Source of the DNA: an uncultured Draconibacterium sp. | Lineage (GTDB): Bacteria; Bacteroidota; Bacteroidia; Bacteroidales; Prolixibacteraceae | DNA length: 64,000 bases | Assembly: GCF_963675585.1 (NCBI RefSeq) | Contig: NZ_OY776414.1 | Coordinates: forward strand, 1,095,001-1,159,000 | Direction: 5' to 3' | In this document: piece after piece, positions 33,733 to 57,083 of the stretch | How positions within the stretch are numbered: position 1 is the first letter of the stretch | Layout of the letters: every line of letters starts with the position of its first letter | Translations under genes and position numbers: made by a program | Notes under the pieces: generated by a model | Databases searched by the model: none | The model's input: the letters and a program-made list of their open reading frames with translations, nothing else | What the model was told of the DNA's origin: nothing

Positions 33733-33770
33733 TTACCCAAATAACGGATAGAATTACCCCGATTACGGAA
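33733..33770. promoter_or_regulatory. Operator site A (17-bp direct repeats, 21-bp period)
   Basis: TTACCCAAATAACGGAT (33733-33749) and TTACCCCGATTACGGAA (33754-33770) start 21 bp apart. The pair matches sites B, C and D. Two-turn direct repeats are the usual binding mode of AraC-family regulators. It lies upstream of the CMD operon. Confidence 0.75.
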
Positions 33771-33860
33771 TGTGAGAGAGAAGTGTGTAAAAGAAGTTTT
33801 GTTAACTTCCAGATTCGTAAATTATCTGATTGAGAGAAGGTAGGGGTATACTACTATTAG

Positions 33861-34421
33861 CTAGTCAATGTGCTTAATTATTTTAGCAGGAATACCGCCT
33901 ACAACCGTATTATCCGGCACATTTTTGTTTACAACAGCTCCGGCTGCCACAATCGAATTCTCACCAACAGTAACACCGGGAAGAATAGTTGCACCGGCAC
34001 CAATCCATGCACCGTTTTTAATCACAACCGGCCGAACCATTAATGCTTTTCTGTCGGCAGGATTTACAGGATGCTCTTCGCTTAATAGGTTTACTTTTGG
34101 CCCGATCAAAACATTATCGCCAATTGTTATGGTGCCCATATCGAGCATTGAACAGAGATGATTGATATATACATTTTTACCAATGCGTGTGAATTTGCCA
34201 ATATTCACATAAACCGGAATCTGAATCATGGTGCTCGGGTCAAGTGCTTCGCCCGAAATTTCGCCCCACATTTGGCGCATCTTTTCAGTATCTGCCGTTG
34301 CGTTCAACTCTAAAAGTAACTTTGTGGTGCGCACAGCTACTTCAGAAATCTGAAAATGTTGTGGATCGGTATAGGGAACTGCTTCACCACCTTGTAAACG
34401 ATCAAAAATATTCTTTTTCAT
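33861..34421 (-). CDS. Maltose/galactoside O-acetyltransferase-like hexapeptide protein
   Basis: The 186-residue protein has the LacA/Maa layout: a helical N-terminus (RLQGGEAVPYTDPQHFQISE) and a left-handed beta-helix with hexapeptide repeats from about residue 70 to 180 (IGDNVLIGPKVNLLSEEHPVNP, WIGAGATILPGVTVG). The catalytic His is in EEHPV. The enzyme would transfer acetyl from acetyl-CoA to a sugar or similar hydroxyl. It is 70 bp after the MalY-type gene and is the last gene of the DUF3737 operon. A weak operator-like pair lies just upstream at 34434-34471. Confidence 0.87.
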   Translation of the reverse strand: MKKNIFDRLQGGEAVPYTDPQHFQISEVAVRTTKLLLELNATADTEKMRQMWGEISGEALDPSTMIQIPVYVNIGKFTRIGKNVYINHLCSMLDMGTITIGDNVLIGPKVNLLSEEHPVNPADRKALMVRPVVIKNGAWIGAGATILPGVTVGENSIVAAGAVVNKNVPDNTVVGGIPAKIIKHID

Positions 34422-34433
34422 TTTTACCTAAAT

Positions 34434-34471
34434 TTAAACGTATTACGTAGCAACTTATCTTTATTACGAAA
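34434..34471. promoter_or_regulatory. Weak operator-like direct repeat (site E)
   Basis: TTAAACGTATTACGTAG (34434-34450) and TTATCTTTATTACGAAA (34455-34471) are spaced exactly 21 bp. Both keep ATTACG but lose the CCC core. It sits only 13 bp upstream of the acetyltransferase ATG, so it may be a relic or a secondary site. Confidence 0.35.
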
Positions 34472-34491: not shown

Positions 34492-35667
34492 TTAAGCTAT
34501 AAGCTGATCAAATGACATTTTTAGTCTATTCAGTCCTTCTTGTAAAACATCGCGCGAACATGCAATGTTCAGGCGCATAAATCCTTCTCCTGCATCGCCG
34601 TAAACCGTTCCTTCGTTGAGCCAGACTTTTCCTTTCTCTATAAGCAGTTCGGTTAGTTTTTCCGACTTAATGTTTAATGCAGAAGTATCGATCCAAACCA
34701 AATAAGTTGCTTCCAGTGGTAAGATCGGGAATTGTGGAAAGTTTTCCGTGAAGAAGTCTTTTACAAACAAATAGTTGTCCCACAAATAGGCTCGCAAATC
34801 ATCCAGCCATTTTTCTGAATCTTCGTTCGTGTAAGCGGCAATCAGTCCTTCAACCGCAAACGGACTTACATCGCAAACTTCGTTAATGTTGATGGCTTTA
34901 TCGATCTTTTTGCGAATCTCCGGATCGTACGTTAAAATATTTGCGATCTGTAATCCTGCCAGATTGAAGGTCTTACTTGGAGCAACACAGGTTACAGAAT
35001 GCTCTAAAAACTGTTGGCCCAGCGACGCGAACGGAATGTGGGTGTGTCCCGGATGCACCAAATCGCAATGGATTTCATCTGAAACCACAATTACCTTATT
35101 ACGGAAACAGATTTCACCAATTTTCTCCAGTTCTTCTTTTGTCCACACACGGCCTGCCGGATTATGCGGGTTGCATAAAAGCATCACTTTGGCTTTTGGA
35201 TCTGCCGCCTTTTTTTCCAGATCTTCAAAATCGATGGTGTATTTTCCATCTTTGTAAATCAGGTCATTTGAAAAACTCTCACACTGGTTATTCCGAATCG
35301 ACGAGAAAAAACAGTTGTAAACCGGCTCTTGCACAATTACTTTATCACCGGGTTCTGTCAAAGCCAAGATTGTTGCTGAGATGGCAGGAACCACACCAAT
35401 TGTGTAAATCATCCATTCCTTTTCAACCTTGAAATTATGTCTGTGTCCAAACCAACTGATAACCGCATCGTAATACGCATCTGGTACTTTTGTATACCCG
35501 AAAATACCATGCTGCACACGATTTGCAAGTGCATCAATGATAGGCTGAGCAGTTTTAAAATCCATATCGGCCACCCACAAGGGAATTATATCGTCGTTGG
35601 TTTTTGAATCCCACTTGTATGAATTAGTGCCTTTGCGTACTATTTTTTCGTCGAAATTGTGTTGCAT
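34492..35667 (-). CDS. MalY/PatB-type PLP aminotransferase (cystathionine beta-lyase family)
   Basis: The 391-residue class I/II aminotransferase-fold protein starts [16 protein letters not shown] and WVADMDF, the MalY/PatB signature. PLP residues are Asn in [11 protein letters not shown] (about 166-175), Asp197 in VVSDEIH and the Schiff-base Lys232 in SKTFNLAG. Family members cleave C-S bonds of cystathionine or cysteine conjugates; some have regulatory roles. It is 4 bp after the DUF3737 gene, so the two are co-transcribed. Removing cysteine conjugates would fit an electrophile-response operon. Confidence 0.88.
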
Positions 35668-35671
35668 ATTT

Positions 35672-36529
35672 TTATACGTTTACTTCGCTTTCTACTTTGA
35701 TTTTACATCCTCCCGGATTTTTACAGTTTTCATCAAAAATAACATCTCCAATATTATGTGCCAAAATTTCACCTTCCGAAGGATTTTTAACGCTGGTAAC
35801 CGGACTGTTAATTTCAGCTTTTAATGTGCTGTATTCAAATGCCAGATCAGCATTTTCTTCCATTGTACAGTTTTCCATTACTAAACCTTTGGCATAACAA
35901 AGCGGTTGGGTTCCGCTGATTACACAGTTTACCAGGCGTAGATTTTTCGAGTGCCAGCCCAGGTATTCACCATCAATAACAGAATCATACACGGTAACAT
36001 TTTCGGTATTCCAGAACGCATCCTTCGAGGCCAGATTAGAGTTGCGGATTTCAATATTTCTGGCATACTGAAAACCGTAGTTTCCCTGCAGCGTAAGGTC
36101 TTCAATTTGAATGTTTTTACTATCCTTAAAAATGTAATCGCCATTAGTTATTTTAACATGGTTAAGTTTGATGTTTTTACACCACCACAAACATTCCTGA
36201 GCATCGGTGAGTTCGACCTTTTCAAGAGAGAGTCCATCAATTTCCCGAAACATTTTTGGTGCGTCCACGCGGGTGTTAATCATACGAATATCGCTACAGT
36301 ACCAAATGGCTGCACGCCCGCCTGGAGTAAATAATGAATTTTCGATAACACTGTTTGTATTGTGCCAGAAAGGGTATTTGCCTCCAAAAGTACAACCGGT
36401 AGCTTTTATGTTGCTCGCTTCCTTTAATGCTGATTCTCCTAATCCAATTTCAACATTCTTAATGTGTAAATCTTTTTCTGCAAACAACGGTCGTTCTCCT
36501 TGAAAAAATTTGTTTTCTATTGTTTTCAT
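35672..36529 (-). CDS. DUF3737 beta-helix protein, copy 1
   Basis: The 285-residue protein is a right-handed beta-helix made of short repeats such as NCxxxG and [14 protein letters not shown]. It belongs to DUF3737, which is common in gut and anaerobic bacteria and has no known function. No signal peptide is seen, so it is cytoplasmic. Residues 160-204 are identical to the paralogue at 38924. It leads an operon with MalY and acetyltransferase genes, and operator site B lies 158-195 bp upstream. Confidence 0.85.
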
Positions 36530-36657: not shown

Positions 36658-36665
36658 CAAAAATC
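36658..36665 (-). promoter_or_regulatory. -7-like box GATTTTTG of the DUF3737-1 operon
   Basis: GATTTTTG on the minus strand differs from TAnnTTTG at the first base. It is exactly 22 bp from the left end of site B, the same distance as at site A. Confidence 0.4.
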
Positions 36666-36686: not shown

Positions 36687-36724
36687 TGACCCGTATTCCT
36701 GTATTAGTTACCAATATTACGGAA
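36687..36724. promoter_or_regulatory. Operator site B (17-bp direct repeats, 21-bp period)
   Basis: TGACCCGTATTCCTGTA (36687-36703) and TTACCAATATTACGGAA (36708-36724) start 21 bp apart. The second repeat carries the invariant ATTACGGAA. It lies upstream of the DUF3737-1/MalY/acetyltransferase operon. Confidence 0.72.
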
Positions 36725-38923: not shown

Positions 38924-39781
38924 TTAAACGTTTACTTCGCTTTTAACTTTTATTGTGCAACCACCCGGGTTTTTACAGTGTTCATCGAAGATAATTTCGC
39001 CAATGCTCTGTGCTATTATTTCGCCACTGGAAGGATTTTTTACACTGGCAACCGGACTTGTAATTTCTGCTTTTAACGAGCTGTATTCAAATGCCAAATC
39101 AGCGTCTGCATTCATTTTGCAGTTTTCCATTATTAAGTTTTCGGCATAACATAAGGGCTGAGTTCCACCAATTACACAATTAACCAAACGCAGGTTTTTA
39201 GAGTGCCATCCCAGGTATTCGCCATCAATCACCGAATCGTAAACGGTTACATTCTCCGTATTCCAGAAAGCGTCTTTCGAAGCCAGATTCGAGTTTCGGA
39301 TTTCGACATTTTTTGCATATTGGAAACCATAGTTTCCCTGAAGCGTTAAATTTTCAATTTTAATATTCGCACTGTTTTTAAAGATGTAATCCCCATTTCC
39401 CACCTTAACATTCTCAAATTCAATGTTCTTACACCACCAGGTACATTCCTGGGCATCGGTGAGTACCACGTTTTTCAGATATAATCCGTCAATTTCGCGA
39501 AACATCTTTGGTGCTTCCACACGGGTATTTACCATGCGAATGTTTTTACAATACCAAACGGCCGCACGACCATAAGGTGTAAATAAAGTGTCCTCGATTA
39601 CGGAATTGCTGTTGTGCCAGAAAGGGTATTTACCGTAAAACTCACAATTAACCGCATGAATATTGCTTGCTTCTTTTAAAGCAGACTCTCCGGGGTAAAA
39701 TTTAACATTTTTAAGGTGTAAGTTTTTAGCTGCAAATAAAGGTCGTTCTCCTTCAAAAAATCTGTTTTCAATTAGTTTCAT
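38924..39781 (-). CDS. DUF3737 beta-helix protein, copy 2
   Basis: The 285-residue protein is the same length as the copy at 35672 and shares long identical blocks, including 45 residues at 160-204. The two differ mainly at the N-terminal third. The high identity of the middle suggests recent duplication or gene conversion. It leads an operon with EamA and DUF418 genes. Operator site C lies 136-173 bp upstream and is shared with the divergent alcohol dehydrogenase gene. I found no TAnnTTTG box for this gene. Confidence 0.85.
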   Translation of the reverse strand: MKLIENRFFEGERPLFAAKNLHLKNVKFYPGESALKEASNIHAVNCEFYGKYPFWHNSNSVIEDTLFTPYGRAAVWYCKNIRMVNTRVEAPKMFREIDGLYLKNVVLTDAQECTWWCKNIEFENVKVGNGDYIFKNSANIKIENLTLQGNYGFQYAKNVEIRNSNLASKDAFWNTENVTVYDSVIDGEYLGWHSKNLRLVNCVIGGTQPLCYAENLIMENCKMNADADLAFEYSSLKAEITSPVASVKNPSSGEIIAQSIGEIIFDEHCKNPGGCTIKVKSEVNV

Positions 39782-39916: not shown

Positions 39917-39954
39917 TTACCCAAATTCCTGAATTACTTACCCAGATTACGGAA
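39917..39954. promoter_or_regulatory. Operator site C (17-bp direct repeats, 21-bp period)
   Basis: TTACCCAAATTCCTGAA (39917-39933) and TTACCCAGATTACGGAA (39938-39954) start 21 bp apart. It lies between the divergent DUF3737-2 operon and the alcohol dehydrogenase gene. Its right end is 38 bp from the -7 box of the dehydrogenase. Confidence 0.78.
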
Positions 39955-39992: not shown

Positions 39993-40000
39993 TATGTTTG
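39993..40000 (+). promoter_or_regulatory. -7 box TATGTTTG of the alcohol dehydrogenase gene
   Basis: TATGTTTG matches TAnnTTTG; no TTTG is present at -33, which fits an activator-dependent promoter. It overlaps the in-frame ATG at 39994, so translation must start at 40027. AnTAGTT precedes it at the same place as at 57122. Confidence 0.6.
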
Positions 40001-40026
40001 CATGGAATTTTAAAAAGAAAACAGAA

Positions 40027-41199
40027 ATGAATACAGATTTCACATATCAAAATCCAACAACGATTCACTTTGGTAAAGAATCGTTAAAAAATTTGAAGAC
40101 AGAATTGGCCAATTACGGAGATACAATACTATTGGCTTACGGAAAAGGGGCAATCAAAAAAATCGGACTCTTCGATCAGGTGGTTTCGATTCTGAAAGAG
40201 AGCGGAAAACACATTGTTGAGCTTACCGGAATTATGGCCAACCCAACCTGGGAAAAAGTAAAAGAGGGGGCACAACTTGTTCGTGAGAATAAAGTTGATT
40301 TGATTCTTGCAGTGGGTGGCGGTTCGGTTATCGACTGTGCAAAAGGAATTTCGGTATCGGCTTATTGCGAAAATGATCCATGGACTAAATACTGGTTGCA
40401 ATTTCAACCGGTAGATAATGAGATTGTACCGGTAGCTTCGATTCTTACATTGGCTGGTACAGGTTCGGAAATGAATGGCGGATCGGTGATTACCAACGAC
40501 GATATGAAACTGAAAATGGGACGAGTGTTTCCTGCAAATGTATATCCTACATTTTCAATACTGAATCCTGAGTATACTTTTTCGTTACCAAAATACCAGA
40601 TGGTAAGTGGTATTTTCGATATGATGTCGCACCTGATGGAAGTGTATTTTTCGGGCAATGATGATGTAACATCAGATTATCTGGTTGAAGGTTTGTTGCG
40701 TTCAATTGTTAAAAGTGCCAAAGTTGCCATTGAAAATCCGGAGGATTACGAAGCAAGAAGTAACCTGATGTGGAGTGCAACGCTTGCAATGAATCCGCTG
40801 ATGGGATTGAGTAAACCTTCTGATTGGCAGGTTCACATGATCGAGCATCAGTTGGGGGCTTACACCGATTGCGCACATGGTATGGGTTTGGCGGCTGTTT
40901 CGCTTCCGTATTACCGAGCCATTTACAAAGAAGGGCTGGATAAGTTTGCTCGTTTTGCAACACAGGTTTGGGGAATAAAAGAGGACGACAAAACAAAAGA
41001 AGAACTTGCACTGGCCGGTATCGATGCACTGGAAGCTTTTTGCAAAGAGTGCGGCATTGTAACTAACCTGAAGGAATTGGGCGCAACAGAAGAAATGATA
41101 CCCGATATTGCCAACTCAACCATAATACTGGGTGGGTATAAAAAGTTAACACACAACGAAATTTTAGATGTTCTGAAAACTGCTTATAATGCAGAGTAA
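40027..41199 (+). CDS. YqhD/BdhA-type iron-containing alcohol dehydrogenase
   Basis: The 390-residue enzyme has the NAD(P) loop VGGGSVIDCAK (96-106) and the metal site Asp198, His202, His270 and His284, spaced as in YqhD. YqhD-type enzymes reduce aldehydes, including methylglyoxal and furfural, to alcohols with NADPH. The start at 40027 (MNTDFTYQN) is chosen because the upstream ATG falls within the -7 box. Operator site C lies 73-110 bp upstream. In E. coli yqhD is activated by an AraC-family protein, YqhC, which supports the regulon proposed here. Confidence 0.9.
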   Translation: MNTDFTYQNPTTIHFGKESLKNLKTELANYGDTILLAYGKGAIKKIGLFDQVVSILKESGKHIVELTGIMANPTWEKVKEGAQLVRENKVDLILAVGGGSVIDCAKGISVSAYCENDPWTKYWLQFQPVDNEIVPVASILTLAGTGSEMNGGSVITNDDMKLKMGRVFPANVYPTFSILNPEYTFSLPKYQMVSGIFDMMSHLMEVYFSGNDDVTSDYLVEGLLRSIVKSAKVAIENPEDYEARSNLMWSATLAMNPLMGLSKPSDWQVHMIEHQLGAYTDCAHGMGLAAVSLPYYRAIYKEGLDKFARFATQVWGIKEDDKTKEELALAGIDALEAFCKECGIVTNLKELGATEEMIPDIANSTIILGGYKKLTHNEILDVLKTAYNAE

Positions 41200-44132: not shown

Positions 44133-44215
44133 GTGTGAAAATACTAAATTTAAACTTACCAGTATTCTATGTTGATTGATAAAATGAAAGAAAATCGTGT
44201 TTGTTGAATGCTTGG

Positions 44216-44308
44216 TGTATCATAACTGATATCGATGTAACATGTTTGTTATTGTGTTGATTTACAGTAGTGTAATGTTACATGGTTTTGACGGTTTGTA
44301 TCATAGCT
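44216..44308. promoter_or_regulatory. Nested repeats in the sensor/PUL promoter gap
   Basis: TGTATCATAACT (44216-44227) and TGTATCATAGCT (44297-44308) are direct repeats 81 bp apart. Between them ATGTAACAT (44235-44243) and ATGTTACAT (44275-44283) are inverted. They are candidates for the binding sites of the hybrid sensor's AraC domain. Confidence 0.45.
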
Positions 44309-44333
44309 AAAAGTCAGAATTTGGGTTTGCCCG

Positions 44334-44341
44334 TACTTTTG
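44334..44341 (+). promoter_or_regulatory. -7 box TACTTTTG of the PUL operon
   Basis: TACTTTTG matches TAnnTTTG, 34 bp before the ATG at 44376 and 25 bp after the second TGTATCATA repeat. No -33 element at normal spacing, consistent with activation by the sensor. Confidence 0.5.
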
Positions 44342-45732: not shown

Positions 45733-46629
45733 ATGAAAATAAAAAACAAAGAAATATTATGTGTTGGAGAGGTTCTTTGGGATCGATTGCCGTCAGGGGC
45801 AAAACCCGGAGGCGCGCCAATGAATGTGGCACTGCACCTGAATGCAATTGGGCTTGATGTTGCCATTGCCAGCAGCATTGGAAACGATGAAGCAGGTTGC
45901 GAACTAAAAATGTTTTTGGAAGATTCAGGCCTGAGTACCGATTACATTCAAACGGATGAGGCTTTAGCTACCAGCGAAGTATTGGTTCATTTGGATGAAA
46001 ACAACAATGCAACATACGAAATATGCGAACCGGTAGCCTGGGATTGTATTCGTTTAACGGAATCGCTGATGCAGAAAGCCAAACGTTCCGGGTTAATGAT
46101 TTATGGATCTCTGGCATCGCGCAACCCAATGACACGGGAAACACTATTGAGTTTGTTGGATTACGATGGCATTAAATTGATAGATGTAAATTTCCGTAAA
46201 CCATACGATTCGCAGACAGTGGTTGAAAAACTACTGGAGAAAGCAGATATCGCAAAATTAAACGACGACGAGTTGCTGGTATTTGCGCAATGGCACAATA
46301 AAATGAATTGCGACGAAAAGAGCCTCATAAAGTGGTTTGTTTCGAAGTACAATTTAAAAATGGTTTGTGTAACAAAAGGCGAGAAAGGTGCCTTGTTGTA
46401 TTGCAATGGCGAATTCTACGAACACTACGGATTTAAAGTAATTGCAGTAGATACAGTTGGAGCCGGCGATGCTTTTCTGGCCGGCCTGATTGCAGGTCTG
46501 CTTCACGAAAAAAAACCTACCGACGCTTTGGCATTTGCCTGTGCTACAGGAGCATTTGTGGCATCGAAAGAAGGAGCTACTCCAAAGTATGAAATGAATG
46601 AGATCAATTCGATTCTTAATATTAATTAA
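45733..46629 (+). CDS. PfkB-family fructokinase
   Basis: The 298-residue ribokinase-fold enzyme has the N-terminal substrate region GGAPMNVALHLNAIG (about 27-41) and the ATP/anion-hole motif GAGDAF with catalytic Asp246. It would phosphorylate fructose to fructose-6-phosphate after uptake by the MFS carrier 13 bp upstream. The SusC gene starts 12 bp downstream. The order carrier-kinase-SusC-SusD-GH32 matches levan/fructan loci, which is the main reason for fructose over other sugars. Confidence 0.88.
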   Translation: MKIKNKEILCVGEVLWDRLPSGAKPGGAPMNVALHLNAIGLDVAIASSIGNDEAGCELKMFLEDSGLSTDYIQTDEALATSEVLVHLDENNNATYEICEPVAWDCIRLTESLMQKAKRSGLMIYGSLASRNPMTRETLLSLLDYDGIKLIDVNFRKPYDSQTVVEKLLEKADIAKLNDDELLVFAQWHNKMNCDEKSLIKWFVSKYNLKMVCVTKGEKGALLYCNGEFYEHYGFKVIAVDTVGAGDAFLAGLIAGLLHEKKPTDALAFACATGAFVASKEGATPKYEMNEINSILNIN

Positions 46630-46641
46630 ACTAGTCAAATT

Positions 46642-49600
46642 ATGATGAAAAACGAAAAATTAAAAAGGATTGCTAGTGGAATAATAATTATTCTTCTATG
46701 TGTGTTTTCAACTTCAACATTTGCGCAGCAGGTAACTGTTTCGGGAAATGTAAAAGACGCCTCGGGCTTAGCACTGCCCGGAGTTACAATTGTTGAAAAA
46801 GAAACAACAAATGGTACCGTCACGAATATGGATGGTAACTATTCAATTAACGTATCAAGTGCCAATGCCGTTTTGAAAATCTCTTTTATAGGGATGAAAT
46901 CGCAGGAGATTATTGTTGCCGGACAAACCAGCATTAACATTACAATGGAGGAAGAAACAATCGGTCTTGCAGAAGTTGTGGCAGTTGGTTACCAGGTTCA
47001 ACGAAAAGCCGACTTAACCGGTGCAATCGAAGTGGTTGAAATGGAAACCATCGAGAATGTGAGTTTAAGCTCGGGTAATCCGATGCAGGCTTTACAAGGC
47101 AGGGTTCCCGGACTTTACATCGAAAAAACAGGTTCTCCATCAGGAACAAACAGCCGCATTCTTATACGTGGTGAAAACACTTTGGGGAATAATGATCCAC
47201 TTTACATTATTGATGGTGTACCTACAAAACGACCAGAGGTGTTTCAGGGCCTGAGCGCAGGATCTATCGTTTCGGTACAGGTGTTGAAAGATGCATCAGC
47301 TTCTTCCATTTACGGAGCCAGAGCATCAAACGGAGTTGTGATTGTTACCACAAAAAACGGGGCTAAGCAAGACGGGAAAATCAACGTTCAGTTTAACTCA
47401 AATGTGTCAATTCAAACCGAAAAACCACAGCGCTTTGACATGGTAAATGCTGTTGACAGAGGAAGAGCTTTGTGGCAGGCTTCTGTTAACGATGGTGTTG
47501 ATCCTGCAAGCGGTTATGGTGAGATTTACAATTTTGACTGGAACGGAGATTTTAACAATCCGGTTTTAAACAGTGTAAGTGTTCAACCTTATGTTGGTGG
47601 CGATACAAATGTGCCTGCTGGTGATACCGACTGGCAGGATGAAACCTACGAAACCGGTTTTGTTATCAACAACGACCTGACCATTTCCGGAGGAACTGAT
47701 AAATCTTCTGTTCTGATGAACCTGGGATACATTAAAAATACGGGTATGTTAAAATATACCAATTACGACCGTTTAACAGCACGTATTAATGCCCAGACAA
47801 AAATGTTCGACGATAAATTTCGTACAGGAATGAATGTTCAGGTTGTTTCTTCAAATGAAACATTGGAAACTCCCGACCTTGGTAGTGCACCAACTCCTGG
47901 GCTTGCCGTTACACTGGCACCTACAATTCCGGTTTATACCAGCACAGGTGAATATGCCGGTCCGATAGGATCTGGTTATTCCGATCGAAACAATCCGGTA
48001 TTTATGCAATACATTAACCGTTGGGACAATACCAATCGTTCTTATTTATTTGGGAATGCTTATGCCGAAATTGAACTCATTAAGAATTTAGTAGTGCGTA
48101 CAAATGTCGGCATTGATTATTCAATGGTAAAAGATAAAGACATTGAACAAAGTTTTACCAATGGATTTATTGCGCGTTCGGTTAATAGCCTCACCAATTA
48201 TAATAGCCAGTTTACAAGCGTTACCTGGTCGAATACTGCAAGTTATAAACTTGAAGTGGGCCAAAGCAATTTTTCATTCCTATTGGGAGTTGAGTCGGTT
48301 GGCGATGATTTTAAAGATTTTACAGGTTACAAAGAAGGTTTTTCATCACAAACTGAAGACTTTTTTGTTTTAAGTGCAGGTACCAGCAACGGTAATAGTT
48401 TTGGAACTGCAGCTTCCAGTCGTTTATTCTCACAATTTGGAAAAATCGATTACAACTTTGCCAACAAATATTTGGCTTCATTTACCTTACGCCGCGATGG
48501 TTCATCCCGATTTGGTGACGAAAATCGTTACGGATATTTTCCTGCTGCAACATTTGGTTGGAGATTAACAGAAGAGAACTTTTTGAAAGATGTTGATTAC
48601 TTATCGAATTTGAAATTCAGAGCTGGTTGGGGAAGTGTAGGAAACCAGGATGTTGGAGAATACGCAAGCCTTGGTTTGTACGAACCTCGTTACGGTGCTT
48701 TGGCGAGTCAGGTTGCATCCATCAATCATAACGACTTTTTCGACCAGTATTGGAATGTAGGTACAGCCTATTCGTTAAGTGGTGCCGATTCAGGAAATCT
48801 TCCTTCGGGCTTTGTATCTGTTCAGGGAGCAAATCCGGCACTGAGATGGGAAACAACTAAAGAACTGAATATTGGTATCGATTTCGGATTTTTTGATAGT
48901 AAGTTAATTGGTGCTTTTGATGTGTTTACACGTACTACTTCCGATATTTTAATTCAACCACCGGTAGCATCGGCTTTAGGCGAAGGACAAAAACAATTTT
49001 TAAATGGTGCTACCCAGAAAAACAAAGGTTGGGAATTTGCAGTGGGATACCGAAGCGAAACCAAAAATGATTTCTCGTACGATATTAATCTTGGCTTGAG
49101 TCATTTTGTAGATAAAATTACCGAATTACCGGAAGAAGTAAGAACTGCTTATCCTGGAAATGCAGAGCAAACAATTATCGGACATTCCAGTCGCTCAATA
49201 TTTGGTTATGTTACCGACGGATTGTTCCAAAACCAGGCTGAAGTTGATGCACACGCCTCGCAGGTTGGTGCTGCCCCCGGTAGAATCAGATACAAAGATT
49301 TGAATAATGATGGAACAATCGATGCCCTGGATCAGGATTTTCTTGGAACTACACTTCCTGATTTGGAATATAGTTTAAGGGTAGATTTAAACTACAAAAA
49401 CTTTGATTTTTCTATGTTCGGTTCAGGTGTAGCAGGAAAAACCGGTTATGATATTTATACCCAGTACAATGATTTTGTGCGTAGCCGCGATAATGTTGGC
49501 CCTGGTGTATTTCGTGCATGGACTCCCCAAAATACAAGTTCAACTGTGCCTGCTTTAAGTTTGTCGGATAATAATAACGAAGCCAGGTCGTCTGATTATT

Positions 49601-49830
49601 ACAATGTGAATGCCTCTTATTTTAAACTTCGAAATGTGCAATTAGGCTACACCTTTAACGAAGCGTTTACCAATAGAATCAGGCTTGAGAAACTAAGAGT
49701 TTATTGTATGGCCGATAACTTGTTCTGGATAAAGAGCAGCGATTTCCAGGGACCTGATCCTGAAAGAATTGACGTGAATTCAATACCTATTCCAACTTCA
49801 ATTTCATTTGGTGTGAACGTAACATTATAA
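46642..49830 (+). CDS. SusC-like TonB-dependent outer-membrane transporter
   Basis: Signal peptide to about residue 29, then a carboxypeptidase-D-like domain (30-110: VTVSGNVKDASGLALPGV), a plug with MQALQGRVPGLYIEKTGSPS and LYIIDGVPT, and a barrel of 22-strand type ending SISFGVNVTL. The 1062-residue length is normal. With SusD it imports oligosaccharides in a pedal-bin manner. The start is ATG at 46642, with a second ATG in the next codon. It is 12 bp after the fructokinase gene and 21 bp before susD. Confidence 0.95.
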   Translation: MMKNEKLKRIASGIIIILLCVFSTSTFAQQVTVSGNVKDASGLALPGVTIVEKETTNGTVTNMDGNYSINVSSANAVLKISFIGMKSQEIIVAGQTSINITMEEETIGLAEVVAVGYQVQRKADLTGAIEVVEMETIENVSLSSGNPMQALQGRVPGLYIEKTGSPSGTNSRILIRGENTLGNNDPLYIIDGVPTKRPEVFQGLSAGSIVSVQVLKDASASSIYGARASNGVVIVTTKNGAKQDGKINVQFNSNVSIQTEKPQRFDMVNAVDRGRALWQASVNDGVDPASGYGEIYNFDWNGDFNNPVLNSVSVQPYVGGDTNVPAGDTDWQDETYETGFVINNDLTISGGTDKSSVLMNLGYIKNTGMLKYTNYDRLTARINAQTKMFDDKFRTGMNVQVVSSNETLETPDLGSAPTPGLAVTLAPTIPVYTSTGEYAGPIGSGYSDRNNPVFMQYINRWDNTNRSYLFGNAYAEIELIKNLVVRTNVGIDYSMVKDKDIEQSFTNGFIARSVNSLTNYNSQFTSVTWSNTASYKLEVGQSNFSFLLGVESVGDDFKDFTGYKEGFSSQTEDFFVLSAGTSNGNSFGTAASSRLFSQFGKIDYNFANKYLASFTLRRDGSSRFGDENRYGYFPAATFGWRLTEENFLKDVDYLSNLKFRAGWGSVGNQDVGEYASLGLYEPRYGALASQVASINHNDFFDQYWNVGTAYSLSGADSGNLPSGFVSVQGANPALRWETTKELNIGIDFGFFDSKLIGAFDVFTRTTSDILIQPPVASALGEGQKQFLNGATQKNKGWEFAVGYRSETKNDFSYDINLGLSHFVDKITELPEEVRTAYPGNAEQTIIGHSSRSIFGYVTDGLFQNQAEVDAHASQVGAAPGRIRYKDLNNDGTIDALDQDFLGTTLPDLEYSLRVDLNYKNFDFSMFGSGVAGKTGYDIYTQYNDFVRSRDNVGPGVFRAWTPQNTSSTVPALSLSDNNNEARSSDYYNVNASYFKLRNVQLGYTFNEAFTNRIRLEKLRVYCMADNLFWIKSSDFQGPDPERIDVNSIPIPTSISFGVNVTL

Positions 49831-49851
49831 TCAACTTAAAACATTAAAATT

Positions 49852-51591
49852 ATGAATAACATAAATAAATATTTGATTTTACTCTTGATGGCATTTTTGT
49901 ATGCCTCATGCAATGACTACCTCGACACAGAACCGCAGGGTTTTATAACCGCAGGAGCTCCTTCCATTGATGGTGCTGAAGGTTTGGTTACAGCAGCTTA
50001 TGCAGGAATTGGAAATAACGATATGATCGGGCCCATTGCAAGTATGTGGGTGTATGGTAGTGTACGTTCCGACGATGCATACAAAGGTGGTGGTGGAACC
50101 GGTGATGTGGAGCCGTTCAACTTTTACGAACAGTACAATTTTACACAGCCTGAACAAAGCTGGCTGGCTGGTTTGCCTTATACCTGGGAAAACTTTTATA
50201 CGGCTATTTCAAGAGCCAATGCAGCTTTGAAGATGTTAAACCAACTTTCCGACGAAGAATATGCAGATCGAAAAACACGCATTGCAGAAGCACGTCTTTT
50301 ACGGGGACATTCTCATTTTATGCTAAAAGTTCTCTTTAAGTATGTTCCGTACATTGATGAAACCTTTTCAAATGACGAAATTCTGGAGACATCTAACAGG
50401 AAATACACAAACGATGAATTGTGGAATGTAATTGCCGAAGATTTTCAATTCGCTATAAACAATCTTCCTGAAACACAAGCAGAAATCGGACGTGTTAACA
50501 AATTTGCCGCTGCTGCTTATCTGGCTAAACTTCGTCTTTATCAGGCCTACGAACAAGATGAAAATAACCAGGTTACAAATATTAACCAAAACCGTTTACA
50601 GGAAGTGGTAGATTTAACCGAAATGGTTATTCAATCGGGAATGTACAATTTACAGCCTGATTTTGGTGAAAACTTTCTGGATGGATTCGACAATGGACCG
50701 GAGTCTGTTTTTGCTATTCAATTCTCGATTAGCGACGGAACCACTTCTGGCCGTTTAAATTTTGAAAACGGATTAAATTATCCGCATGGAGCACCTCAGT
50801 ACGGATGTTGCGGTTTTCATCAGCCAAGCCAAAATATGGTGAATGCTTTTGCTACTGATGAAAACGGATTGCCAAAATTCGAAACGTTCAATGATGTGGC
50901 ATTAAATGCTGCAGATATTACTCCTGATGGTGTTACAGTTGATCCGCGAATCGATCATTCTGTTGGTATCGATGGACATCCTTACAAATACCGTAACGAA
51001 GATGCTTATATTTTTAGCAACAGTTGGGTTCGTGAAGCGGGAGTTTACGGATACTATCAAAGTATGAAGGAGCAACAGGCAGCAGATTGTTCGTGTTATA
51101 AAAAGCAAGGCCCATTTATGGGAGTGTCTAAAAATATCGACATCATTCGTTATGCCGACGTGCTTTTAATGCAGGCAGAAGCTTATATTGAATTGGGACA
51201 ACAAGATAAAGCACGGCCTTTAATTAACGAAGTTCGTGCACGTGCAGCACAAAGTACAAGTAGAACAAGACTGGCAGACGGAACTTCTCCTTCAAATTAC
51301 CTCGTTAATTTATACGATGGTTCAAACCTTGATTGGACACAGGGAAATGCACGGAAAGCTTTACAATGGGAACGTCGTTTAGAGTTTGCTTTGGAAAGTC
51401 CACGTTTCTTCGACCTCGTTCGCTGGGGAATTGCCGAAGAAGTGCTAAATGATTATTTAGAAATAGAAAAGACCAGAAAAGATTTTCTGAACGAAGCTCA
51501 TTTTACTGCCGGTAGAGATGAATATTATCCTATACCACAACGCGAAATTGACTTTACAAAAGGTTTATACGAACAGAACACCGGGTATTAA
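49852..51591 (+). CDS. SusD-like surface lipoprotein
   Basis: A lipoprotein signal ends YASC, giving lipidated Cys20, then NDYLDTEPQGF, the usual SusD opening. The 579-residue protein has TPR-type helical repeats (IAEARLLRGHSHF, KFAAAAYLAKLRLYQAYE) and the C-terminal LQWERRLEFALESPRFFDLVRWG. It caps SusC and binds the imported glycan. It is 21 bp after susC; the next gene follows after a strong hairpin. Ligand is inferred as fructan or fructosyl-sugar from neighbours. Confidence 0.94.
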   Translation: MNNINKYLILLLMAFLYASCNDYLDTEPQGFITAGAPSIDGAEGLVTAAYAGIGNNDMIGPIASMWVYGSVRSDDAYKGGGGTGDVEPFNFYEQYNFTQPEQSWLAGLPYTWENFYTAISRANAALKMLNQLSDEEYADRKTRIAEARLLRGHSHFMLKVLFKYVPYIDETFSNDEILETSNRKYTNDELWNVIAEDFQFAINNLPETQAEIGRVNKFAAAAYLAKLRLYQAYEQDENNQVTNINQNRLQEVVDLTEMVIQSGMYNLQPDFGENFLDGFDNGPESVFAIQFSISDGTTSGRLNFENGLNYPHGAPQYGCCGFHQPSQNMVNAFATDENGLPKFETFNDVALNAADITPDGVTVDPRIDHSVGIDGHPYKYRNEDAYIFSNSWVREAGVYGYYQSMKEQQAADCSCYKKQGPFMGVSKNIDIIRYADVLLMQAEAYIELGQQDKARPLINEVRARAAQSTSRTRLADGTSPSNYLVNLYDGSNLDWTQGNARKALQWERRLEFALESPRFFDLVRWGIAEEVLNDYLEIEKTRKDFLNEAHFTAGRDEYYPIPQREIDFTKGLYEQNTGY

Positions 51592-51602
51592 TAAATTAGT
51601 TT

Positions 51603-51650
51603 AGAGTATGGTTGGGAGATAATTCTCCCTCCATACTCTGTTTTGTTTTC
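51603..51650 (+). terminator. Strong hairpin with T-rich tail after susD
   Basis: A 9-bp outer stem (51603-51611 with 51631-51639) and a 6-bp inner stem (51614-51619 with 51624-51629) are followed by GTTTTGTTTT. It sits between susD and the hydrolases and likely makes their expression lower than that of susCD. Confidence 0.8.
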
Positions 51651-51670
51651 ACTAAAAAGCTTGTTTAACC

Positions 51671-53158
51671 ATGAAAAATTCTGCCCTGATTTTATTCCTG
51701 ATGTTGATCCTTTTATTTGGATGCACAGAAAGGAAACACCAGAAAGCTGCTGCCAGCTTACACTTTAGTCTGAATAATTCGATGCTGCAAAATCCTGTGG
51801 CCCTTATTCATACCGAAGATTGTTATAACCTGTTTTTTAGATATTCAGTTGATGGTGGACTAAAACAATGGGGAAAGGCTCGAAGTAAGGATTTGGTGCA
51901 TTGGAATTACAATTTGGTGAATGTCGCCTTTGGAAATGTTGGCGGGCAAAATATTAAAACTGTAGTTGTTGATCGAAATCAAACATCAGCTTATAGTTCC
52001 GAATCACCGGCATTAATTGCCTTTAGTACATCTGCAAATCAGTTTGGAAAACTGGAACTTTTATACAGTGCCGACAATGGTTTAATTTGGAAACAAGATG
52101 AGGTAAACGAGATATTGTTAGCCGATTTTTATGAGCCGGTTCAGGATGTAAAAGTGATCTGGAATGACGATCTGCAAAAATGGATTATGTTAACGCTTTC
52201 AGGTTACGAGGTGCGTTTTTATTCGTCCGATAATCTGATAAACTGGGAGTATTTAAATCGATTTGGCGATGACGTATACCTGAAAACAGGAGAATGGACC
52301 AGCCTTGATTTTTTCCCGATGGAAGTAGAAGGAAGTCACGAGATAAAATGGATTTTGTTTATTAGTGCCGATAGTGGTTCTCCAAACGAGGGGAGTGGTG
52401 TTCAATATTTTGTTGGCGACTTTGACGGTTTTGTTTATCAGGCATCGCATAACAAACCCAAATGGATCGATCATGGAAGTGATCTTTACCAGGCAGTAGT
52501 TTTATCCGATTATCTGTCTGAAAATAAACCGCCTGTTTTAATCGGAAGTATATACAACTCGATCTATGAAAAATTTAATATCAACAGTGATTCGCTCATT
52601 GAATTTTCATTGGCCCGTCAGTTGACTTTAAAAGAAGAATTTAACGACTACTATCTAATTGCCGTACCTGCTAATACCATTGATACCATAGAAAAAGAAA
52701 AGGAAAAAATTGCAAAAACTGAATTGACGGATGGTAAGCAAGTCGGAAAAAAAATACAGTTGCCTGTTCGCATCGATCTGAACTTTAGCGTGAACAACCG
52801 TTTGTACTTGGGAATGGCCGAAGCTTTTGGTGCCAAAATAAAAAATAGTAAAGGAGAGGAATTAATTTTAGGATACCAGACTGAACGAAGATATTTTTAC
52901 ATTGCTGAACCTTCTATACAAAAAAAGTTCCCCGATTCCTGGGATGGCTTTAATTACGCCCCTTATGTTACCAACGATGCACTGATGGATATGACTTTAA
53001 TTATTGACAAGAACTCGGCCGAGTTATTTGCAATGAATGGACTTATTTCCTTGTCGAGGAAGTTTAATTTTAATGGAGAGTCAGCACAACTTCAGCTATT
53101 TGGAGAAAAAGGAACTGTAAGTTTACAAGAAGGAACGATTACTGAATTCCGGAAATAG
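51671..53158 (+). CDS. GH32-family lipoprotein that has lost catalytic residues
   Basis: A lipoprotein signal ends LFGC (Cys18). The body follows GH32, with blades LFFRYSVDGGLKQWGKA, LVHWNYNLVNV and VKVIWNDDLQKW. Aligned with the intact paralogue at 53196, the nucleophile in WMNDPNG is Asn41 (MLQNPVA), the acid/base in WECPD is Thr210 (WTSLD), and RDP reads QDV with Asp159 kept. Thus hydrolysis is very unlikely. The whole fold, including the C-terminal beta-sandwich, remains. In an operon with no SusE-type binding protein, a surface glycan-binding role is the best inference. A separate enzyme activity cannot be excluded. Confidence 0.85.
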   Translation: MKNSALILFLMLILLFGCTERKHQKAAASLHFSLNNSMLQNPVALIHTEDCYNLFFRYSVDGGLKQWGKARSKDLVHWNYNLVNVAFGNVGGQNIKTVVVDRNQTSAYSSESPALIAFSTSANQFGKLELLYSADNGLIWKQDEVNEILLADFYEPVQDVKVIWNDDLQKWIMLTLSGYEVRFYSSDNLINWEYLNRFGDDVYLKTGEWTSLDFFPMEVEGSHEIKWILFISADSGSPNEGSGVQYFVGDFDGFVYQASHNKPKWIDHGSDLYQAVVLSDYLSENKPPVLIGSIYNSIYEKFNINSDSLIEFSLARQLTLKEEFNDYYLIAVPANTIDTIEKEKEKIAKTELTDGKQVGKKIQLPVRIDLNFSVNNRLYLGMAEAFGAKIKNSKGEELILGYQTERRYFYIAEPSIQKKFPDSWDGFNYAPYVTNDALMDMTLIIDKNSAELFAMNGLISLSRKFNFNGESAQLQLFGEKGTVSLQEGTITEFRK

Positions 53159-53195
53159 AAACATCATATACGAAAGAACTGCTAATACAAATTTC

Positions 53196-54779
53196 ATGAA
53201 TCAAAAATATTTTAATTATCAGCTTATTATCTTAGTATTGTTTGTGTGGTCATGTTTTTCATGCTCAAATCAGACAACAAAGAATGCCGAAAATACAAAA
53301 CCATACACCGAAAAATTTCGGCCACAATACCATTTTTCACCTGATTCTGCCTGGATGAATGATCCCAACGGCATGGTGTACTTCGAAGGAGAATATCACT
53401 TGTTCTACCAATTTTATCCCGATTCAAATGTGTGGGGACCAATGCATTGGGGGCACGCAATCAGTACTGATTTGGTACATTGGCAGCATTTGCCTGTTGC
53501 CTTGTCTCCGGATAGTTTAGGATTCATTTTTTCAGGCAGTGCAGTGGTCGACCGGAACAATACAAGTGGATTTGGATCCAAAGAAAATCCGCCATTGATA
53601 GCCATTTTTACATATCATAATCCGGAGATTGTTGAAGCGGGTGGAGTAGAAGTGGAATCGCAGGCTATTGCCTACAGTTTGGATAAAGGACGAAGCTGGA
53701 CAAAATACGAAGGAAATCCGGTTATCCCGAATGACGGGAATAGGGATTTTCGCGATCCGAATGTGATTTGGAATGAAGAAATTCAAAAGTGGAACCTGGT
53801 GCTTTCTGCCAGCGATCATGTTCAGATTTATTCTTCAGAAAACCTGAAAGAATGGAAGCACGAAAGCGATTTTGGCATTGATGCAGGAACGCATGATGGA
53901 GTTTGGGAATGTCCTGATTTGTTTCCTTTACAGATAGAGGGAACGGATGAAATGAAATGGGTTTTAATCGTTAATATTAATCCCGGAGGTCCAAACGGTG
54001 GTTCAGGAACACAATATTTTTTGGGAGAATTTGATGGACATGAGTTTACTGCAGATTCGAAAGAAATCAATTGGGTGGATTGGGGACGTGATAATTATGC
54101 CGGAGTAACGTGGTCGGATGTGCCAAAAGAAGATGGCCGGCGTATTTTCCTGGGCTGGATGAGCAACTGGGATTATGCTGCAGTTGTTCCAACTAAAAGA
54201 TGGCGAAGTGCCATGACCTTGCCCAGATCATTGTCTTTAATTAAAAAGAAAGACAGTTATGTATTGAAGTCGACGCCGGTTAAAGAAATTGATCTGATAA
54301 CTGATGAGTCAACATCGGTTATTACTGAAAATATAGAAGTTTTGGGTGAGAAAAAACTGGATTTGAAAGGTAGAGCATTAAATCAGAGTCGTATCTCACT
54401 TGAATTTGAAATGGAAGAAACGCTTCCTCAGTCATTTGGAGTTGTATTTGAAAACGACCTGGGAGAGCGTGTAATATTAAGTTATTTGAGTTCCACAGGG
54501 CAGTTTCAGTTTAATCGTACAAAATCCGGAGACATGAGTTTTTCTGATAAGTTTTCCGGAGTATCATTCGCCCCCTACAAAATTGGATCAACCGTTACAC
54601 TCGACATATTTGTGGATGCTGCATCTTCTGAAATTTTTGTTGACGGTGGTGAGCTGGTAATGACAGAAATATTTTTCAGCACTCAACCATTTAGCACGCT
54701 CAAGGTTTTTGCCGATAAGCAAGCGCTTACTCTTCGAAGAGCAGAAGTTACTGCTATTCGTTCAATTTGGAATAAATAG
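53196..54779 (+). CDS. GH32 beta-fructofuranosidase lipoprotein
   Basis: A lipoprotein-type signal (Cys20 or Cys23) precedes a complete GH32 enzyme. The nucleophile is Asp56 in WMNDPNG, the transition-state Asp187 in FRDP, and the acid/base Glu238 in WECPD. The five-blade domain ends near residue 345 and a beta-sandwich follows. GH32 enzymes split sucrose, inulin, levan or kestose; exo or endo mode cannot be told. It is 37 bp after the degenerate copy and 19 bp before the GH36 gene. It is probably on the cell surface or periplasmic leaflet. Confidence 0.94.
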   Translation: MNQKYFNYQLIILVLFVWSCFSCSNQTTKNAENTKPYTEKFRPQYHFSPDSAWMNDPNGMVYFEGEYHLFYQFYPDSNVWGPMHWGHAISTDLVHWQHLPVALSPDSLGFIFSGSAVVDRNNTSGFGSKENPPLIAIFTYHNPEIVEAGGVEVESQAIAYSLDKGRSWTKYEGNPVIPNDGNRDFRDPNVIWNEEIQKWNLVLSASDHVQIYSSENLKEWKHESDFGIDAGTHDGVWECPDLFPLQIEGTDEMKWVLIVNINPGGPNGGSGTQYFLGEFDGHEFTADSKEINWVDWGRDNYAGVTWSDVPKEDGRRIFLGWMSNWDYAAVVPTKRWRSAMTLPRSLSLIKKKDSYVLKSTPVKEIDLITDESTSVITENIEVLGEKKLDLKGRALNQSRISLEFEMEETLPQSFGVVFENDLGERVILSYLSSTGQFQFNRTKSGDMSFSDKFSGVSFAPYKIGSTVTLDIFVDAASSEIFVDGGELVMTEIFFSTQPFSTLKVFADKQALTLRRAEVTAIRSIWNK

Positions 54780-54798
54780 ATATTTAAAAGAAACAGAA

Positions 54799-57018
54799 AT
54801 GCACACTTATATAAATAAACTCATTTTTGGCATTGGACTTGTTTGTTTTTCGTTTACACTGGCCGTTGGACAAAACACAAAAGTAATTGAGATCAAAACC
54901 AAATCAACATCACTTGTTTATGCGGTAGATCAAAGTAGCAGACTGATTTTTCAACACTACGGAAAAACAGTAGATTCTCCGGAAAATTTCAAACAACACA
55001 AAGCGTATGCAAAACCAGATACCGACCGTGATTTTTCGTATGAAGCTTATCCTACATTTGGATTGGGAAATATAAATGAGCCGGCATTGGCTGCAATCCA
55101 TTCCGACGGAAGTTTAAACACCGAACTGGCTTTTGTATCTGCAGAAACTAATGATACTCAGCCTGGAATCACAGAAACAGTAATAACCTTAAAAGACCGT
55201 GTTTATGATTTTACAGTAGAACTTTATACAAAAGCTTTTTGGAATGAAGATGTTATCAGCCAGTGGACGGTAGTTGAAAACAATGAAGAAGCTACGGTGA
55301 AACTGAACAATTTTGCATCTTCATTTTTGCCGCTTAAAGCAGAAAGTTATTACCTGACCCATTTTTATGGAGCCTGGGCAGGCGAGATGAGTGTGGCCGA
55401 AGAAAAGCTAGAAAATGGAATTAAAGTAATTGAATGTAAAAAAGGTGTACGAACCACCCAAACAGAGAATGCTTCGTTTCTATTAAGCTTGAATCATCCG
55501 TCGTTGGAAAACTCAGGTGATTGTTACGGAGGCGCACTTGCGTGGTCAGGGAATTATCGCTTAGCTTTTCAGGTAGACGAGTGGAGAACATTAAATGTTA
55601 TTTCAGGCATTAATCCATTTCTTTCGGCCTGGTCGTTAAAAGCGGGAGAAAGGCTTGCAACACCCGAAATGATTTACACTTTCAGTAGTACCGGTCGTGG
55701 TCAGGTTTCCAGAAATCTACACGATTGGGGCCGCAAATACGCGATGGTAGGTGGAACAAAAATCCACGATATAGTGCTCAACAGTTGGGAAGGCGCATAT
55801 TTTAGTTTTGATGAAAACACTCTGACCGGAATGATGGATGATGCAGCTGAAATGGGTATTGAAACCTTTGTACTCGACGATGGCTGGTTTGGGAATAAAT
55901 ATCCAAGGAACAACGACGATGCAGGTTTGGGTGATTGGCAAACGAACACAAAAAAACTGCCTCGGGGCCTGGATTATTTAATCGACTATGCACATTCGAA
56001 AGGTTTGAAATTTGGGTTGTGGATTGAACCGGAGATGGTAAATCCGGAAAGCGAATTGGCCGGTAATCATCCGGAGTGGATTGTGCAAAGTGCTGATCGC
56101 GATAAAATTACCTGGCGGAATCAGTTGTTACTTGATTTGTCAAATCCCAAAGTTCAGGATTTTGTGTACAATGTTTTTGATAGTTTGCTTACAAGTCACC
56201 CGGGAATCGAGTATGTGAAATGGGATGCTAATCGTCATGTTGAACAGGCAGGTTCTACTTTTCTTCCAGCTTCGGAACAAACTCATTTCTGGATTTCCTA
56301 TACTCATGGATTGTATTCTGTTTACGAGCGAATTCGGGAAAAATATCCTGATTTTGTAATCCAGGACTGTGCATCGGGCGGTGGCCGTCTGGATTATGGT
56401 GCCTTGAAATATCACAACGAATATTGGACTTCGGATAATACTGATCCTTTATCACGTATTTTTATTCAATATGGAACAACACTGATTTATCCACCGGTTG
56501 GGGCAGCATCGCACGTGTCAACCAGCCCGAATCATCAAACACTGCGTATGACTCCTCTGAAGTTTCGCTTTGATGTGGCTATGACAGGCAGGTTGGGAAT
56601 GGAGCTGCAACCAAAACATATTCAGGGAGATGAGCGTGTTTTTGCCGAAGAAGCCATTACGAATTATAAACAATTTGTAAGACCTTTGGTGACAAACGGT
56701 GATCTGTTTCGTTTAAAATCACCTTATGACGAGGGGGGATGGGCTTCGCAAATGTATGTTGCAAAAGACCAAACATCTGCTGTGTTGTATGCTTTCAGTT
56801 TGGAGCCACATCTGCGTGGAATTTATCCAACTATAAAACTGAACGGACTTGATGCCAAGAAAAAATATCAAATCGTTGAAATCAATAAAAATGGGAAAAC
56901 CCGTTTCCGGGGCGATGGACAAACATTTTCAGCCGACTATCTTATGAATGTTGGAATAGAACTTAAAATTGCGGATCAGTTTGATAGTGCTGTATTTTTA
57001 CTGAATGTTGTGCATTAG
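54799..57018 (+). CDS. GH36 alpha-galactosidase
   Basis: From ATG at 54799 the protein has a signal peptide (about 1-24, ending AVGQ) and 739 residues. An upstream in-frame ATG at 54709 lies inside the GH32 gene and is rejected. The GH36 barrel shows VLDDGWFG, GLWIEPEM, nucleophile Asp476 in KWDANR, and acid/base Asp546 in TSDNTD, close to the positions in Geobacillus AgaA-type enzymes. It removes alpha-1,6-galactose from raffinose or stachyose, leaving sucrose for GH32. The signal peptide places it in the periplasm. Confidence 0.92.
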   Translation: MHTYINKLIFGIGLVCFSFTLAVGQNTKVIEIKTKSTSLVYAVDQSSRLIFQHYGKTVDSPENFKQHKAYAKPDTDRDFSYEAYPTFGLGNINEPALAAIHSDGSLNTELAFVSAETNDTQPGITETVITLKDRVYDFTVELYTKAFWNEDVISQWTVVENNEEATVKLNNFASSFLPLKAESYYLTHFYGAWAGEMSVAEEKLENGIKVIECKKGVRTTQTENASFLLSLNHPSLENSGDCYGGALAWSGNYRLAFQVDEWRTLNVISGINPFLSAWSLKAGERLATPEMIYTFSSTGRGQVSRNLHDWGRKYAMVGGTKIHDIVLNSWEGAYFSFDENTLTGMMDDAAEMGIETFVLDDGWFGNKYPRNNDDAGLGDWQTNTKKLPRGLDYLIDYAHSKGLKFGLWIEPEMVNPESELAGNHPEWIVQSADRDKITWRNQLLLDLSNPKVQDFVYNVFDSLLTSHPGIEYVKWDANRHVEQAGSTFLPASEQTHFWISYTHGLYSVYERIREKYPDFVIQDCASGGGRLDYGALKYHNEYWTSDNTDPLSRIFIQYGTTLIYPPVGAASHVSTSPNHQTLRMTPLKFRFDVAMTGRLGMELQPKHIQGDERVFAEEAITNYKQFVRPLVTNGDLFRLKSPYDEGGWASQMYVAKDQTSAVLYAFSLEPHLRGIYPTIKLNGLDAKKKYQIVEINKNGKTRFRGDGQTFSADYLMNVGIELKIADQFDSAVFLLNVVH

Positions 57019-57045
57019 TTCTGACTAAATTAGAAGTTGGTTGAA

Positions 57046-57083
57046 TTACCAAGATTACTGAATTGGATACCCGTATTACGGAA
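57046..57083. promoter_or_regulatory. Operator site D (17-bp direct repeats, 21-bp period)
   Basis: TTACCAAGATTACTGAA (57046-57062) and ATACCCGTATTACGGAA (57067-57083) start 21 bp apart. It lies upstream of the AraC-family gene, and its right end is 38 bp from the -7 box, the same as at site C. This points to autoregulation. Confidence 0.75.

Follow-up and report, generated by a model that had tools for sequence, protein, structure and literature searches.

The predicted motifs of the AraC-family rhamnose regulators of Bacteroides, Bacillales and Enterococcus are direct repeats with a 21-bp periodicity, in the part of that study available (PMC3870299). Here we analyze a 64,000-nucleotide stretch of DNA (the window) from an uncultured Draconibacterium sp. 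(contig NZ_OY776414.1, positions 1,095,001 to 1,159,000), in which four intergenic gaps each hold a 38-bp tandem site. The explanation that we favor as a whole, and regard as very probable, is that these sites serve as operators for the AraC-family product of the gene at 57158–58054, which would be an activator with two modes of action. Its observed basis is the sites themselves, their specificity in the genome, their conservation together with the regulator and a fixed promoter geometry. The likeness to the rhamnose regulators lies in the 21-bp direct repeats, the protein family and, for one of the groups, the phylum; the available account differs in that its targets are those of sugar catabolism and that the groups have unique DNA motifs (PMC3870299).

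Two further systems bear comparison. RamA, MarA and SoxS activate both from upstream (class I) and from sites overlapping the core promoter elements (class II), according to the accessible portion of PMC8811837. They resemble the system described here in drawing two modes from one AraC-family protein, apparently with opposite directions of the site. RamA differs, in the same portion, in acting as a monomer at sigma-70 promoters, whereas at the present locus the site is a tandem, the protein has a sensor domain and the −7 boxes are of the Bacteroidota type. In the YqhC–YqhD–DkgA aldehyde response of E. coli, as outlined in the available sections of PMC8262776, an AraC-family regulator controls a YqhD-type dehydrogenase, as is proposed here, and aldo-keto reductase genes adjoin the sites in relatives of our organism (PMC8262776; NC_000913). 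Unlike the YqhC regulon, the set found here also includes genes for carboxymuconolactone decarboxylase (CMD), cupin, DUF3737 and PatB proteins, and flavodoxin genes in relatives. The regulator as an orthologue of YqhC was rejected: the best similarity between the two is 25% over only 60 residues of the helix–turn–helix (HTH) domain, and the window regulator gives no match to AraC_N (PF06719) up to E 1, while YqhC itself matches that family at E 1.5e-40.

The kind of system is already known, as an autoregulated stress regulon of the AraC family; the present member, together with its operator and geometry, did not appear in the literature found. No paper on this regulon was found in the open-licence literature, searched mostly by titles and the beginnings of abstracts, and PMC10434189 is, in the part available, not about it.

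The tandem site and its rarity in the genome

Each operator is a tandem direct repeat of two 17-bp half-sites (Table 1). An earlier account, made from the sequence alone (the sequence-only reading), had placed four AraC-type operators here with repeat starts two helical turns apart; read directly, the sites stand where it put them, the 21-bp period is exact in all four, and the rhamnose motifs provide a precedent (PMC3870299, within its available text). ATTACGGAA is present exactly within the second repeat of every site, again as proposed. The further claim that one motif occurs twice in each gap holds for the tandem arrangement and less well for the letters: TTACCCnnATTACGGAA is matched exactly by just two of the eight half-sites, and the repeats are looser than that wording. 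Over 30 defined tandem positions operators 1–4 have 2, 5, 2 and 3 mismatches, respectively. By the same count the segment 34434–34471 has 7, two more places in the window have 10 and the remainder exceed 10. Additional exact copies of ATTACGGAA begin at 246, 35098 and 39597, the last two within open reading frames (ORFs), so that the half-site alone proves nothing; the rarity belongs to the 38-bp tandem.

An exact pattern search of the organism's own genome recovered two of the four sites, the other two being missed because the first repeats vary, and a model was therefore used instead. This model, R1, is built from sequence only, using 12 tandem sites from 12 other genomes, each located upstream of an AraC homologue (alignment A1), and no window site was used to train it. 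The search covered the whole genome (6,032,436 bases) and scored 150 of its 4075 first-look candidates; 20 matches were listed, and the ranks that follow are among these. The four window operators occupy ranks 1–4 genome-wide, with E-values of 1.3e-7, 5.8e-7, 3.6e-6 and 4.7e-5. Rank 5 (E 3.1e-4) begins 107 bp before the sole close AraC paralogue of the regulator; rank 6, at E 0.06, is the segment at 34434, and the remaining 14 matches span E 0.06 to 7.5. An E-value of 3.1e-4 or less is reached at only five places in 6 Mb, all of them upstream of the regulator, of genes near it or of its paralogue. The motif is not spread at random, since the window sites head the ranking of the whole 6.03 Mb, and the distribution, with only one of the first five ranks lying elsewhere, agrees with the mainly local regulon that had been proposed. 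Only the organism's own genome and the genomes of the order are independent of R1; the 16-locus set used below includes the 12 training sites.

All four repeats lie in gaps, and a promoter feature held in common or a mobile repeat, rather than an operator, could be found in such places. We regard this as extremely improbable, given where the five best matches lie and that the flanks of the sites look unrelated by eye.

Promoter geometry and the direction of the sites

The −7 box of Bacteroidota has the consensus TAnnTTTG in the accessible part of PMC7366714. Measured outward from the operator, TTTG is found at two fixed distances, 25–27 nt on the left or 40–43 nt on the right. These offsets were first noticed in the 16-locus set and the loci of the organism's own genome, with the ranges set by eye, and were then checked on fresh genomes, represented by the loci that the searches returned. 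For sites of at least 20 bits, a threshold of our own choosing, one or both distances fit in 34/34 sites of the 16-locus set, 22/26 from the fresh genomes, 5/5 in the window (4/4 without the weak site at 34434) and the single site of the paralogue, making 62/66 for the four sets together. Among control positions in the same loci the fit is 4.8% at random and 6.4% in AT-rich sequence. The four misfits (L089, L092, L101 and L102) all come from genomes without the regulator. Both distances fit at once in 3/34 and 7/26 sites of the first two sets, and at the site of the paralogue. With a looser cut of 13 bits there are 34 fresh sites, with TTTG 25–27 nt to the left in 22 and 41–43 nt to the right in 12.

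The two sides differ in a further respect. The −7 box starts with TA in 20/48 left-facing as against 24/25 right-facing promoters (p 2.8e-6), which would be consistent with two modes of activation; the boxes of gaps 1 and 2 both lack it. With a spacer of about 19 bp, as is usual for Bacteroidota promoters, the −33 TTTG element of left-facing promoters would be expected at the edge of the operator. A TAGTT-like element recurs among right-facing promoters, a short way upstream of the −7 box (57114–57118, and matching places in relatives). The motif has a direction, and two different promoter geometries go with it.

We propose that a dimer of the 57158 protein would bind the two head-to-tail half-sites, spaced by two turns of the helix, from a single face of the DNA. 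In the forward setting, with the reverse complement of the listed motif towards the gene, the operator edge would take the place of the −33 element, 25–27 nt before TTTG, allowing class II activation of the CMD–cupin–hydrolase and DUF3737–PatB–acetyltransferase operons. In the backward setting the operator would lie further upstream, 40–43 nt before TTTG, and would allow activation of the genes for the YqhD-type dehydrogenase and for the regulator itself in a class I-like manner. Since the two geometries match the class I and class II picture of RamA, we infer an activator at all four operators, with positive autoregulation.

A protein that instead represses at some or all of its sites, perhaps its own promoter among them, with negative autoregulation as the result, seems unlikely to us. 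It would sit well with the consensus −7 box TAAATTTG downstream of operator 4, which may need no help, and with the near constancy of TA in right-facing boxes. Yet the operators are clear of the −7 box and the expected start, and contact between an activator and polymerase would require the constant distance to the −7 box that is seen on either side, whereas repression would not.

Returning to the activator, the geometry suggests that gaps 1 and 2 serve the CMD and DUF3737–PatB operons, and gaps 3 and 4 the YqhD-type and AraC genes. To this extent the TTTG spacing bears out the targets named in the sequence-only reading, including the placing of a site, operator 4 in the right-hand geometry, before the regulator's own gene. 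That reading had also put the divergent DUF3737–EamA–DUF418 genes under operator 3. There is no TTTG at 25–27 nt on the left side of gap 3, towards these genes, so that their control by operator 3 is unsupported, and the proposal that gap 3 drives both neighbors was rejected for its left side. Its general interpretation (operator, regulon and likely regulator) otherwise stands for the most part, amended by the directionality of the motif and by the site of the paralogue elsewhere. In gap 3 the box TATGTTTG covers the first ATG of the YqhD-type ORF at 39994, and the Met codon at 40027 is therefore probably the real start; the alignment with E. coli YqhD, in which residue 15 of the protein stands opposite residue 3, agrees with this.

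The segment 34434–34471 may be a fifth site, possibly decayed. It has the same direction as the four operators and sits in the same cluster, with TTTG at 27 nt, but within the acetyltransferase ORF. At locus L018 a strong site (30.1 bits) follows patB, at the place that matches this segment.

The regulator and its co-occurrence with the sites

By profile matches and a structure model, the regulator is a member of the AraC/XylS family with an N-terminal beta-barrel sensor and dimerization domain. The C-terminal double HTH (HTH_18/HTH_AraC) matches PF12833 at E 8.4e-22 and PF00165 at E 4.9e-16, and its relatives of solved structure include AraC, SoxS, MarA and RamA. The model has strands within residues 26–100, followed by long helices and the HTH domain, with a mean pLDDT (predicted local distance difference test) of 84.6. 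Foldseek matches it to the RhaR regulatory domain, ToxT, Rns and AraC; template modeling scores over the whole chain are low (about 0.3), probably because the placement of the domains differs. PF02311 falls below its cut-off (19.2 of 21.1 bits). Cys56 is conserved in 90% or more of the 23 homologues aligned, and we would guess at a role for it as a thiol sensor.

Do the regulator and the site occur together? In a survey of 119 genomes of the order, with E ≤ 1e-60 for a regulator homologue (a search that mixes orthologues and paralogues) and E ≤ 0.01 for an R1 site, 22 genomes have the regulator, 24 have the site and 14 have both. The site is present in 14/22 genomes with the regulator and 10/97 without it (Fisher p 5e-7; one-sided p 1.6e-6 when the organism's own genome is removed), which points to the 57158 protein as the likely binder, as had been suggested. 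For 11 of the 32 R1 matches outside the organism's own genome the nearer edge is at most 160 bp from the start of a listed AraC homologue, the direction being that of the window in 10 and opposite in one (G060). A set of 29 homologue loci outside the R1 training (the window's own being excluded, and 7 of 37 homologues having no locus) contains 15 with an R1 match at E ≤ 0.1; for 11 of the 15, the site has its far edge 97–115 bp upstream of where the protein match begins. Conservation upstream of most close orthologues is also seen, in that 11 of 13 homologues of 71–90% identity have a site of more than 30 bits before the gene, 10 of these being training sites. Mangrovibacterium marinum and Maribellus maritimus are among the relatives in which a site precedes the orthologue. 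Loci with sites include those of Draconibacterium, Mangrovibacterium, a Bacteroidales bacterium, a Chitinophagaceae bacterium and Maribacter. One locus, L031 (Clostridia, 23% identity), was dropped as non-orthologous.

A number of observations count against the 57158 protein and the sites forming one system. Eight of the 22 regulator-bearing genomes have no site at E ≤ 0.01, and ten of the 97 genomes without the regulator have one. The other 14 of the 29 homologue loci have no R1 match at E ≤ 0.1; the same is true of L026, L028 and L029 among the 16 loci L015–L030, each with an AraC homologue, and of the sequence directly before the AraC gene of L019. The order-wide search ran under the stricter filters of Infernal, and sites at orthologous positions are non-independent samples. 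The sites in genomes without the regulator were divided according to their setting, a tally that covers these genomes only. Eight of the ten lie within apparent ORFs (L089, L092, L096, L097 and L099–L102) and look like chance; the exceptions are the sites of G005 and G111. A fragment of a homologue (E 1.4e-28) is present in G111, and the nine others have no AraC homologue at E ≤ 1e-15. One of the nine, G005, is a real exception: given as 96% complete, it has a strong (E 2e-7) and correctly spaced site (L109:4245-4285) before a 73% homologue of the window's hydrolase.

The sole close paralogue of the regulator (G000 C4:3196618-3197517) is 54% identical to it, the next best being at 26%. The site that starts 107 bp before it scores 23.4 bits, fits both geometries, and lies between the paralogue and a flavodoxin gene. 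It might be argued that the window sites belong mainly to this protein, or are common to both proteins as overlapping regulons in the manner of MarA, SoxS and Rob. We think this improbable. Its site is the weaker one, as the four operators score 26.1–34.2 bits, and it has more mismatches to the consensus (9/30); moreover the four sites are located within the cluster of the 57158 gene or close to it, and the close homologues of that gene mostly have a strong site of their own, as described above. The paralogue may still cross-bind. Its neighborhood (L107:3635-9521) contains flavodoxin, acetyltransferase, major facilitator superfamily (MFS), iron-containing alcohol dehydrogenase and aldo-keto reductase genes, and a second weak R1 match (14.1 bits, L107:6011-6044) precedes the alcohol dehydrogenase gene.

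A second candidate binder within the window is the hybrid two-component protein encoded at 41337–44132, which has an AraC-type HTH domain. One end of its gene is about 1.4 kb from operator 3, and distant matches to the protein (24–28%) occur in three loci with sites (L091, L096 and L106). However, the gene adjoins a fructan-type polysaccharide utilization locus (PUL), the gap to which has nothing above 6.1 bits (E 0.99), and among L015–L030 just L026 has an ORF for which this protein is the best match in the window (21%). With this context, the motif-free gap and the scarcity of the protein in site loci, it was rejected, and we hold it very improbable as the binder. The 57158 protein remains our preferred one.

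Probable target genes, neighborhood and implications

The genes that adjoin the sites are collected in Table 1. In relatives the genes directly behind sites encode, among others, DUF3737 with PatB, CMD, cupins and cyclophilin-like proteins, and also aldo-keto reductases, flavodoxins, a Gfo/Idh/MocA-type oxidoreductase and proteins of the metallo-beta-lactamase fold; the Pfam scan of these genes covered 20 proteins, a chosen part. The window's set (CMD, cupin, hydrolase, DUF3737, PatB, acetyltransferase and a YqhD-type enzyme) is in agreement with this. DUF3737 is of unknown function according to Pfam, and no paper on it was found in the open-licence literature. The window has two DUF3737 paralogues about 2.4 kb apart (35672–36529 and 38924–39781), with an operator at the fixed spacing only at the first. 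By analogy with YqhC–YqhD of E. coli, the target set would fit a defense against reactive carbonyls or quinones. From the types of enzyme among the targets, our guess is that the signal is of the electrophile class, such as reactive aldehydes, quinones or other electrophiles.

Table 1. Features of the window, in window coordinates.
Feature	Position	Strand	Remarks
Operator 1	33733..33770	+	Half-sites at 33733/33754; R1 genome rank 3; left geometry; reverse complement towards CMD operon
Operator 2	36687..36724	+	Half-sites at 36687/36708; R1 genome rank 4; left geometry; reverse complement towards DUF3737–PatB–acetyltransferase
Operator 3	39917..39954	+	Half-sites at 39917/39938; R1 genome rank 1; right geometry only; YqhD-type gene to right
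Operator 4	57046..57083	+	Half-sites at 57046/57067; R1 genome rank 2; right geometry; upstream of AraC-family gene
Weak site, possibly decayed	34434..34471	+	Between patB and acetyltransferase gene; R1 rank 6, E 0.06 genome-wide
Predicted −7 box GATATTTG	33704..33711	-	CMD–cupin–hydrolase promoter; TTTG 25 nt from operator edge
Predicted −7 box GATTTTTG	36658..36665	-	Promoter of target operon 2; TTTG 25 nt from operator edge
Predicted −7 box TATGTTTG	39993..40000	+	YqhD-type gene promoter
Predicted −7 box TAAATTTG	57122..57129	+	AraC-family gene promoter
CMD family protein, first gene of operon 1	32891..33649	-	PF02627 E 2.3e-35, two stretches
Cupin, operon 1	32469..32867	-	Under (R)-mandelonitrile lyase cut-off
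Alpha/beta hydrolase (S15-like), operon 1	31374..32432	-	73% homologue in G005 with site directly upstream
DUF3737 protein, first gene of operon 2	35672..36529	-	PF12541 E 5.8e-121
PatB/MalY-family C-S lyase, operon 2	34492..35667	-	TIGR04350, 456.8 bits (cut-off 340)
Hexapeptide-repeat acetyltransferase, operon 2	33861..34421	-	PF00132
YqhD-type iron-containing alcohol dehydrogenase, target 3	39994..41199	+	PF00465; 36% identity to E. coli YqhD, 395 columns
AraC-family regulator, 298 amino acids	57158..58054	+	N-terminal beta-barrel sensor (modeled), linker helices, double-HTH domain

The fructan-type PUL (41337–57018) separates the other targets from the regulator. It comprises the hybrid two-component regulator, a sugar transporter, a PfkB kinase, SusC/SusD, two proteins of glycoside hydrolase family 32 (GH32) and one of GH36. 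At L015, L018 and L030 the DUF3737–PatB genes directly adjoin the AraC gene, so that the PUL may have divided an older cluster. On the other side of the regulator, 58313–61670 encodes an MFS transporter, a 224-residue protein without a Pfam match, a protein like flavin mononucleotide (FMN) azoreductases and a cyclic nucleotide monophosphate (cNMP)-binding protein. Genes of the same set neighbor the AraC gene in L016, L017 and L018 and, with the exception of the MFS gene, also in L020 and L030. No R1 match above 4.7 bits occurs in 58313–64000.

How general might the arrangement be? We put at about even the chances that the asymmetric operator is a polarity code for the Bacteroidota RNA polymerase, widespread in the phylum together with a regulon of electrophile defense. 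If so, the operator placed one way would replace the −33 element and drive promoters whose −7 box is degraded, and placed the other way, further upstream, it would drive those whose −7 box matches the consensus; one copy lying between divergent genes could serve both at once. To our knowledge, few sets of regulator, motif and regulon are known in the Bacteroidota outside polysaccharide use. The present one combines a specific 38-bp operator and its likely regulator with conserved targets and an exact promoter geometry. Activator-dependent transcription from −7 TAnnTTTG promoters becomes directly testable, and the regulon provides a route to the role of DUF3737.

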